Of a stretch of 11,003 nt of DNA, positions 6,707-9,222 are shown piece by piece. The stretch covers positions 1-11,003 of the forward strand of contig JALUVB010000118.1 of assembly GCA_027021085.1 (NCBI GenBank), in the 5' to 3' direction. The notes below the pieces were generated by a model that saw only the letters and a list, made by a program, of their open reading frames with translations, did not search any database and was not told where the DNA came from. The stretch's first letter is position 1, and the number at the start of each line of letters is the position of its first letter. Made by a program: the position numbers and the translations under genes. This DNA comes from a bacterium. GTDB taxonomy: Bacteria > CAIJMQ01 > JAADFP01.

Positions 6707-6784
6707 ATACACCTGAAATTTGGGTTGGTTATTCTTAATATTACAGTAAAATAATTTAGTTAGGGAGTGTCAGGAGGTGAGAGC

Positions 6785-7075
6785 ATGAAAGTGAAACCAT
6801 TGGGTGAGCGGGTATTAATTAAAAGACTGGAGGAAGAAAGCAAGACCGAAGGCGGTATTTACCTTCCTGAAACTGCAAAGGAAAAGTCTCACAAGGGAGA
6901 AGTAATCGCTGTGGGAGAGGGAAAGAAATTGAAGAATGGTGAAATAGTTGCCCTCAGTGTGCGGAAGAATGACAAAGTCTTATTTGATAAATTTGGTGGA
7001 ACCGAGGTAAAAATCGAGGGAGAGGAATATATTATCTTGAAAGAAGATGATATCTTAGCAATTATTGAAGAATAA
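6785..7075 (+). CDS. groES: Co-chaperonin GroES
   Basis: A 96-aa protein of normal GroES length that forms the heptameric lid of the GroEL folding chamber in the cytosol. Family landmarks are the N-terminal MKVKPLGERVLIKRLEEE, the mobile-loop region SKTEGGIYLPETAKEKSHKG (residues 19-38) with the hydrophobic GIYLP that docks on GroEL, and the C-terminal strand VKIEGEEYIILKEDDILAII. An in-frame GTG at 6767 would add six residues (MSGGES). The ATG at 6785 is preferred because AGGAGGTGA (6772-6780) lies just before it at ideal spacing, and because the protein then starts as the family does. groEL follows after 18 bp, a standard bicistronic operon. Confidence 0.97.
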   Translation: MKVKPLGERVLIKRLEEESKTEGGIYLPETAKEKSHKGEVIAVGEGKKLKNGEIVALSVRKNDKVLFDKFGGTEVKIEGEEYIILKEDDILAIIEE

Positions 7076-7093: not shown

Positions 7094-8701
7094 ATGCCAG
7101 CAAAAGAAATAACTTACCGGGAGGAAGCAAGGAAATCCCTGGAAAAAGGGGTGGATATTCTTGCAGAGGCAGTTAAGGTTACTTTAGGACCCAAGGGAAA
7201 AACAGTAATTTTAGAGAAGAAATGGGGCTCCCCTACCGTGACAAACGACGGAGTTACTATCGCCAAGGAAATAGAATTAAAAGACCCGGTGGAAAATGCA
7301 GGTGCCCAACTTATAAGAGAAGTTGCCTCCAAAACTTCTGATATTGCGGGCGATGGTACAACCACCGCTTCCTTACTGGCACAGGCAATATTTAAAGAGG
7401 GAATGAAAAACATAGCCGCGGGAGCTAATCCCATGGCTCTAAAAAGGGGTATAGAAAAAGCTGCGGAGATAGTGGTGGAAGAATTAAAGAAACACGCAAA
7501 GCCAGTAGGAAAAAAGGAAGAGATGGCACAGGTGGCTACAGTCTCTGCACACGGAGACACTGAAATAGGCAATCTCATTGCTGATGCCATGGACAGGGTA
7601 GGAAAAGAAGGGGTAATTACCGTGGAAGAGGGGAAAGGAATGAGTATCGAGCTGGAGCTGGTAGAGGGGATGCAGTTTGACCGCGGCTACCTCTCCCCCT
7701 ACTTTATTACTGACCCTGACAGGATGGAAGTGGTCCTGGAAGAACCTTTAATCCTTATTCATGAGAAAAAAATATCCAACGCAAGAGACCTGGTACCTCT
7801 TCTGGAAAAAATAGTGCAGACTGGGAAACCGCTTCTGATAATTGCTGAGGATGTAGAGGGTGAAGCTCTGGCCACTATCGTGGTAAACAAGCTCAGAGGC
7901 ATTCTCAAGTGCGCAGCAGTAAAAGCACCCGGATACGGAGAAAGACGAAAAGCCATGCTGGGAGATATAGCAGTGCTTACCGGAGGAAGAGTCATTGCAG
8001 AAGAGCTGGGTATCAAGCTGGAAAGCATAGACTTAAAAGACCTGGGCAAGGCAAGAAGAGTGGTAATTGACAAGGAGAATACCACTATTGTGGAGGGAGC
8101 AGGCAGCGAAGAAGCCATCAAGGGAAGAATGGAACAAATAAGAAAATCTATTGAGGAAACAACTTCTGATTATGACAGAGAAAAACTGCAGGAGAGACTG
8201 GCTAAACTTGCCGGCGGAGTAGCAGTGATAAAAGTAGGAGCAGCCACAGAGCCTGAAATGAAAGCCAGGAAATCAATCGTAGAGGATGCGTTGCACGCCA
8301 CTCGTGCAGCAGTGGAAGAAGGTATCCTTCCGGGCGGCGGCATCGCGCTTCTCAGGGCACAGGATAAATTGGCCGAGCTGAAACTGGAAGATGAAGATGA
8401 ACAGGTAGGAGCAAACATTATCAAGAAGACACTGGAAGCACCATTAAAACAAATTGCCAACAATGCAGGCTGGGAAGGCGCAGTGGTAGTGGAAAAAGTT
8501 AAGGGAATGGATTATAATTACGGATTCGATGCTGAGAAAGAAGTATTTACCGATTTAGTAGCAGCAGGAGTAATTGACCCGGCAAAGGTAACCCGTTCCG
8601 CTATACAGAATGCAGCAAGCATAGCTTCATTACTCCTAACAACGGAAGCCATAATAGCCGAAAAGCCAAAGGAAGAGGAAGAAGAGAAAAAAGGAGCATA
8701 A
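7094..8701 (+). CDS. groEL: Chaperonin GroEL (60 kDa chaperonin)
   Basis: A 535-aa subunit of the tetradecameric ATP-driven folding chamber that works with GroES. Residue numbering runs parallel to E. coli Gro[11 protein letters not shown] (30-38) binds nucleotide phosphates, D52 lies in TNDGVT, D87 in AGDGTTT and the ATP-hydrolysis Asp D398 in [15 protein letters not shown], followed by GILPGGG. Apical-domain landmarks include [15 protein letters not shown] (190-204) and [17 protein letters not shown] (277-293). The C-terminus is [12 protein letters not shown] rather than the Gly-Gly-Met repeats found in many GroELs, so the flexible tail inside the cavity is short and highly charged. The start is preceded by AAGGAGGGAGAG. 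The stop is directly followed by a small basic ORF. Confidence 0.98.
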
Positions 8702-8800
8702 ATGGCCAGGAAAAAAGGAAGAAAAAGGAAAAGGCAAAATAAGCTAAGGTGGAAAGTTAAAAAGGCAAACAAGGGACGCATACCCTGCTACGGTAAGTAA
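8702..8800 (+). CDS. Very basic 32-aa microprotein, third gene of the groESL operon
   Basis: ATG follows the groEL TAA with no gap, and the frame closes at TAA 8798-8800. AAGGAG (8691-8696), inside the groEL tail codons, lies 5 nt before the ATG, so a real ribosome site is present. The 32-aa product begins MARKKGRKRKRQNKLRW and ends ANKGRIPCYGK. By count it has 10 Lys and 6 Arg, so half its residues are basic, and it has no Asp or Glu. It has one Trp, one Tyr and one Cys. Such composition is typical of nucleic-acid- or ribosome-binding peptides (compare bTHX and L36 in size and charge), but I cannot align it with either. The GC-rich hairpin 48 bp downstream suggests it is carried on the groESL mRNA. 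Lys/Arg codons are also frequent in A-rich DNA, so proof needs conservation or ribosome data. Confidence 0.7.
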   Translation: MARKKGRKRKRQNKLRWKVKKANKGRIPCYGK

Positions 8801-8847: not shown

Positions 8848-8884
8848 AGGGGATGGGCCGGCCAAGATTGCCAGCCCATCCCCT
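8848..8884 (+). terminator. Long GC-rich hairpin ending the groESL transcript
   Basis: An 11-bp perfect stem (AGGGGATGGGC 8848-8858 with GCCCATCCCCT 8874-8884) continues past one C-A mismatch into a 3-bp GGC/GCC stem around a 7-nt loop. It begins 47 bp after the basic ORF. No U-run follows, so it may mark a factor-dependent end, protect the 3' end of the mRNA, or terminate without a U-tract. The structure is certain; terminator function is inferred. Confidence 0.6.
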
Positions 8885-8903: not shown

Positions 8904-8946
8904 CTACCCTTACTTAATAAGTAGCGAGCAGCGAGGGGAAGGGTAG
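8904..8946. repeat. Nested inverted repeat
   Basis: CTACCCTT (8904-8911) pairs perfectly with AAGGGTAG (8939-8946). Inside it, TACTT (8911-8915) and AAGTA (8919-8923) form a small competing hairpin. The right arm leads straight into the first heptamer array. Confidence 0.55.
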
Positions 8947-8981
8947 TAAACAGTAAATAGTGAACAGTAAACCGTGAATAG
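8947..8981. repeat. Heptamer tandem array, consensus TRAAYAG, five units
   Basis: Five consecutive 7-bp units stay in exact phase from 8947 to 8981 (unit starts 8947, 8954, 8961, 8968, 8975). Units vary only at the second base (A/G) and at positions 5-6. TAGCGAG and CAGCGAG at 8922-8935 are two further heptamers of a related type just upstream. Confidence 0.85.
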
Positions 8982-8988
8982 GGGTTTG

Positions 8989-9028
8989 GTACTCTGGTAT
9001 CCTAGTATCTTAGTGTCCTGGTTTCCTG
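8989..9028. repeat. Octamer tandem array, consensus GTRTCYTR, five units
   Basis: Five 8-bp units in phase begin at 8989, 8997, 9005, 9013 and 9021. They are degenerate mainly at positions 3, 6 and 8. The array then merges into a short CCTG tetranucleotide run (9025-9036). Confidence 0.8.
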
Positions 9029-9038
9029 CCTGCCTGTC

Positions 9039-9058
9039 ATGCCTGCGCAAGCAGGCAT
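9039..9058. repeat. Perfect 8-bp hairpin with GCAA tetraloop
   Basis: ATGCCTGC (9039-9046) and GCAGGCAT (9051-9058) are exact complements around GCAA (9047-9050). GCAA is a stable GNRA-type RNA tetraloop when read on the plus strand. There is no U-run, so it is not a classical terminator. Confidence 0.8.
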
Positions 9059-9065
9059 CCACGCA

Positions 9066-9086
9066 AGACTATAGACTGTAAACTGA
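9066..9086. repeat. Heptamer array, consensus ARACTRT, three units
   Basis: Units start at 9066, 9073 and 9080. The first 11 bases (AGACTATAGAC) occur in inverted orientation in the array at 9172-9206, so the two arrays are the same repeat family on opposite strands. Confidence 0.65.
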
Positions 9087-9094
9087 AAGTATAG

Positions 9095-9138
9095 TGAAGA
9101 GTAGTTAGTAGCGAGGGAAGATAGTAAATAGTGAACAG
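9095..9138. repeat. Second copy of the TAGCGAG / TRAAYAG heptamer module
   Basis: Heptamers start at 9095, 9102 and 9109 (the last is TAGCGAG). After a 9-nt purine-rich joint come TAAATAG (9125-9131) and TGAACAG (9132-9138). The same order TAGCGAG, purine-rich joint, TAAATAG, TGAACAG occurs at 8922-8967, so this is a shortened direct repeat of that module about 180 bp away. Confidence 0.75.
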
Positions 9139-9171
9139 TGAGTTAGGGCCTCCGTATCATGTGTCTTTCCC

Positions 9172-9206
9172 GTCTAATGTCTAAAGTCTGATGTCTATAG
9201 TCTAAC
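9172..9206. repeat. Heptamer tandem array, consensus GTCTRAN, five units
   Basis: Five in-phase units start at 9172, 9179, 9186, 9193 and 9200. The first four bases GTCT are invariant, and the last three vary. It is the inverted counterpart of the array at 9066-9086. Confidence 0.88.
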
Positions 9207-9222
9207 ATGGGGGAGCAGGCGC

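Follow-up and report, generated by a model that had tools for sequence, protein, structure and literature searches.

A basic 32-residue microprotein gene abutting groEL probably encodes a bL37-family ribosomal protein of a distinct type

Introduction

Directly behind the groEL gene of the bacterial DNA studied here stands a short and very basic open reading frame, and the question is what, if anything, it encodes. The window, by which we mean the whole stretch of 11,003 nucleotides that was analysed, is part of contig C118 of a draft genome of 1.93 Mb. A sequence-only reading of it had taken the frame for a real, unannotated microprotein and had suggested a stress-linked, ribosome- or RNA-binding peptide or a charged partner of the acidic GroEL tail.

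Among very short, very basic ribosomal proteins is bL37, which occupies a pocket of 23S and 5S rRNA behind the peptidyl transferase centre and has uL30 as a neighbour on the ribosome. It folds into a helix of roughly 13 residues at the N-terminus, followed by a C-terminal loop, and was reported solely from high-G+C actinobacteria (PMC5876184). In a 2026 structure it was called mycobacterial-specific, and occupation of the pocket elsewhere was treated as possible convergence (PMC13392368). NCBIfam already holds a planctomycete type of bL37.

Results

The features of the groES-groEL region of the window, all on the forward strand, are as follows.

6785..7075, +: groES (ORF 6767-7075, with the ATG read at 6785)
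7094..8701, +: groEL, upstream of the microprotein gene, with an acidic tail and without a GGM tail; one of two copies in the genome
8691..8696, +: ribosome-binding site AAGGAG (from the sequence), within the groEL 3' end and 5 nt (CATAA) from the ATG; also present in G001, a genome of the same genus
8702..8800, +: LRW-type bL37-like microprotein gene, 32 aa (from the ORF, its homologues, codon selection and the NCBIfam bL37 models matched by its relatives)
8848..8884, +: downstream hairpin, likely transcript end (15-nt inverted repeat, fold)

The frame of 99 nt opens with an ATG abutting the groEL TAA (8699-8701) and encodes the peptide MARKKGRKRKRQNKLRWKVKKANKGRIPCYGK, in which 10 Lys and 6 Arg make up 16 of the 32 residues and Asp and Glu are absent. 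Its place immediately after the groEL stop, the AAGGAG 5 nt ahead of it and the count of sixteen basic and zero acidic residues had all been described correctly from the sequence. The frame had also been said to end before a transcript-end hairpin. A strong hairpin is indeed found downstream (-29.2 kcal/mol, z -4.95), and G001 has one of other sequence at the equivalent place (-24.3 kcal/mol). The window hairpin is absent from the terminator listing and has no T-run, and because of the latter it is called a likely but unproven transcript end.

Beyond the hairpin, the intergenic stretch at 8915-9210 holds an inverted repeat of 18 nt as well as short degenerate repeats such as AGTAAATAGTGAACAGT, and similar text was also seen 3' of the second groEL of the same genome (G000:C286:19338-20921). 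This second groEL is 66% identical to that of the window and has the C-terminus GGAGAPYGY instead of the acidic tail; the two groEL types occur side by side in the class.

In G001, the only same-genus genome searched, the 31 codons past the start are collinear with those of the window and differ by five substitutions, four of them synonymous and one converting Lys to Arg, while similarity is lost within a few bases past the stop codon. The window gene starts with ATG and its G001 counterpart with TTG, owing to the insertion of one nucleotide at this codon. A disruption of the G001 gene by this change was considered and rejected, as the frame is otherwise intact. Frameshifts or stops in related genomes, or a lack of purifying selection, had been named beforehand as evidence that would speak against the gene; they were looked for in the window's genus and not found. 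A profile search recovered the peptide from five of the seven genomes of the class, three of which lie beyond the window's genus. In the remaining two, G003 and G002 (64% complete), neither the acidic-tailed groEL copy nor the peptide was found, owing either to missing assembly or to real loss. By these sequence comparisons the frame is shown to be a conserved and selected coding sequence.

The search was also widened beyond the class. A scan of named genomes yielded 16 loci, which belong to Omnitrophota, Ratteibacteria, Aerophobetes, Tectomicrobia, Hinthialibacteria, Chloroflexi and further groups. In a sample of 386 genomes drawn from around the window's genome and from across bacteria, profile matches at E <= 0.01 were obtained in 16. 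The members are mostly 24-36 aa long with a Lys/Arg-rich N-terminus, followed by the consensus K-L-R-W-x-S-K-K-A-N-H-G-x-x-P and frequently a C-x-G ending; K14, W17, K20, A22 and P28 are invariant in the 22 sequences aligned. The neighbouring genes, named by eye from their sequences, vary by phylum (tsaD-like, mnmG-like, HAD-phosphatase-like and others), and therefore the peptide is regarded as the product of a stand-alone small gene whose linkage to groEL is local. At one locus (L051:1501-1578, genome G214) a bL37-like gene has TGA at the invariant Trp codon (MSKRKRRGKLK*RSKKANHGRKPNLG), although its neighbouring genes read normally; this may be a decayed copy, a sequencing error or recoding, and no match was found in the other five of the six genomes in that patchy phylum.

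The 22 family members were compared one by one with NCBIfam. At E <= 0.1 the model ribo_Myco_bL37 was matched by 8 of the 22 (best 6e-6) and ribo_Plancto_bL37 by 6, and no model other than these two was matched by any member. The best match, that of an Omnitrophota peptide, extended over nearly the whole length and scored 26.3 bits against a curated cut-off of 30; the curated bL37 cut-offs were reached by no relative. Profile-profile comparison with bL37 (three sequences) aligned 12 columns at a probability of 88% and an E value of 3e-6; the aligned core is thus about 12 residues long, and the core common to the family and bL37 reads K-K-A-N-H-G-x-R-P. Searched against the PDB, the family profile found ribosomal proteins only, and these weakly: mL102 of the Tetrahymena mitoribosome (E 0.04) and mycobacterial bL37 (E 0.07 and 0.2). 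The window peptide alone matched nothing in NCBIfam or Pfam, and its PDB matches were all designed coiled coils, none with an E value below 0.24.

Since all of these peptides are rich in Lys and Arg, the scores were compared with those of composition-preserving shuffles. Against the family profile, Mtb bL37 and two planctomycete-type bL37 sequences scored above 5000 of 5000 shuffles, and the bL37 of M. smegmatis and of C. acnes exceeded all but 1 of 5000. In the reverse test most Omnitrophota-type members beat 2000 of 2000 shuffles. Neither the window peptide nor its relatives from Ratteibacteria did so, the score of the window peptide against bL37 being near shuffle level, and therefore the link to bL37 runs through the family. 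Homology between the family and bL37 is thus shown, at the level of sequence, by way of the family and not by the window peptide alone. In a single-sequence AlphaFold model the window peptide forms a helix at residues 7-22 followed by a tail (mean pLDDT 78); the predicted fold, an N-terminal helix with a C-terminal tail, is that of bL37.

The peptide is named 'bL37-like, LRW type', outside NF047428 and NF047429, and was placed in neither of these curated families because their cut-offs were tested and not reached. With the bL37 of Mycobacterium and Cutibacterium (NCBIfam NF047428; PDB 5o60, 7kgb, 8crx) it shares the very short and very basic sequence, the N-terminal helix and C-terminal tail and the KANHGKRP core; it differs by K-L-R-W-x-S before the core, an often present C-x-G ending, a score below the curated one and its presence outside Actinobacteria. 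Planctomycete bL37 (NF047429) has a similar short basic N-terminus and a K-L-K-K-A-N-H-G-R/K-R-P core, but a longer basic C-terminal tail and no Trp. Clear matches of the three bL37 types did not overlap within the same 386 genomes, and in the window's genome no second bL37 was found with NF047428 at E <= 10 or with NF047429 at E <= 0.05. In mL102 (PDB 6z1p) the likeness lies in KKANHGARPCSS at residues 68-79, with the match KKANHGARPC; at 109 aa and the E value given above, this protein is a lead and no proven homologue. It stretches between the central protuberance and the L7/L12 stalk (PMC7326499).

A link to uL30 was also considered. The uL30 gene (rpmD) was not found in the window's genome nor in several LRW-positive lineages. 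In the spc region of the window's genome (G000:C48, L112) an ORF reading as uL15 is followed directly by a secY-like ORF, with no uL30-like ORF listed, and in G004 the ORFs of uS5 and uL15 overlap, leaving no room for uL30. The gene was missing from 11 of the 16 LRW-positive genomes, against 157 of the 386 overall. The association of LRW-type bL37 with uL30 loss is suggestive only (Fisher p 0.034 per genome and 0.074 with the positives counted per family, kinship being ignored in both).

Discussion

With a probability of roughly 80%, we take the ORF to encode a large-subunit ribosomal protein of the bL37 family, of a distinct LRW type. The earlier proposals of a real microprotein and of a ribosome- or RNA-binding peptide are both supported by this homology to a ribosomal protein.

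Other explanations fit parts of the data. The groEL tail and the start of the 8702-8800 frame are purine-rich, as would suit a chance ORF in an A-rich region past groEL, but change biased towards synonymous sites and homologues in several phyla have already refuted this, and its probability is practically nil. An accessory of the chaperone, or a stress peptide acting on the acidic GroEL tail, would be in keeping with the gene order in f1 (the window's genome, G000, and G001), where the peptide gene is directly 3' of groEL, and in f2 (G004 and G005), where it follows the orthologous acidic-tailed copy within about 40 nt. However, G006 has the peptide while the sole groEL found in it lies elsewhere, and the relatives in Omnitrophota, Aerophobetes, Tectomicrobia, Chloroflexi and Hinthialibacteria adjoin unrelated genes. 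Such a role is very improbable, and the adjacency of unrelated genes in these five other phyla likewise leaves both the stress link and the partnership with the GroEL tail unsupported.

The peptide might also bind RNA or the ribosome in another way and elsewhere on the particle, its likeness to bL37 having arisen by convergence. What the two have in common is a short, basic core, and the bL37 pocket is filled in other bacteria by unrelated elements, namely the N-terminal extension of uL30 in Borrelia (PMC10618245) and CLaSP in Coxiella, the latter reported to be without substantial sequence identity to bL37 (PMC13392368). Against convergence stand the exact KKANHG.RP core, the nearly full-length match of the bL37 model in Omnitrophota, the failure of shuffles and the lack of matches to other ribosomal families, and we consider it rather improbable. 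The family profile matched neither these two small basic ribosomal elements nor another, bS22/mS38 (AURKAIP1/COX24 domain), of which bS22 is a 30S protein.

If the peptide is an LRW-type bL37, its action can be outlined. Because the ribosome-binding site overlaps groEL, we infer that its translation would be coupled to the groEL stop on the groESL mRNA, and the position behind groEL probably merely supplies high co-expression. As in bL37, the basic helix would enter the rRNA pocket formed by H39-H42, H72, H89 and the tip of 5S rRNA, the C-terminal tail would serve as an anchor, and the peptide may thereby stiffen H89 behind the peptidyl transferase centre.

No published description of the LRW type was found in a literature search that covered few subscription journals. 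The presence of a related gene in Omnitrophota, Ratteibacteria, Chloroflexi, Aerophobetes and further groups changes the picture of bL37 as a protein of actinobacteria only. Tentatively, bL37 could be an old bacterial ribosomal protein overlooked for its size, with the LRW type widespread in uncultured phyla and surviving in mitochondria as mL102; where uL30 is lost, it may be the only protein in that 5S/H39-H42 part of the ribosome. Annotators would gain from the family a missing ribosomal gene, and in structural work its sequence would be a candidate for density near the peptidyl transferase centre that has no assignment.
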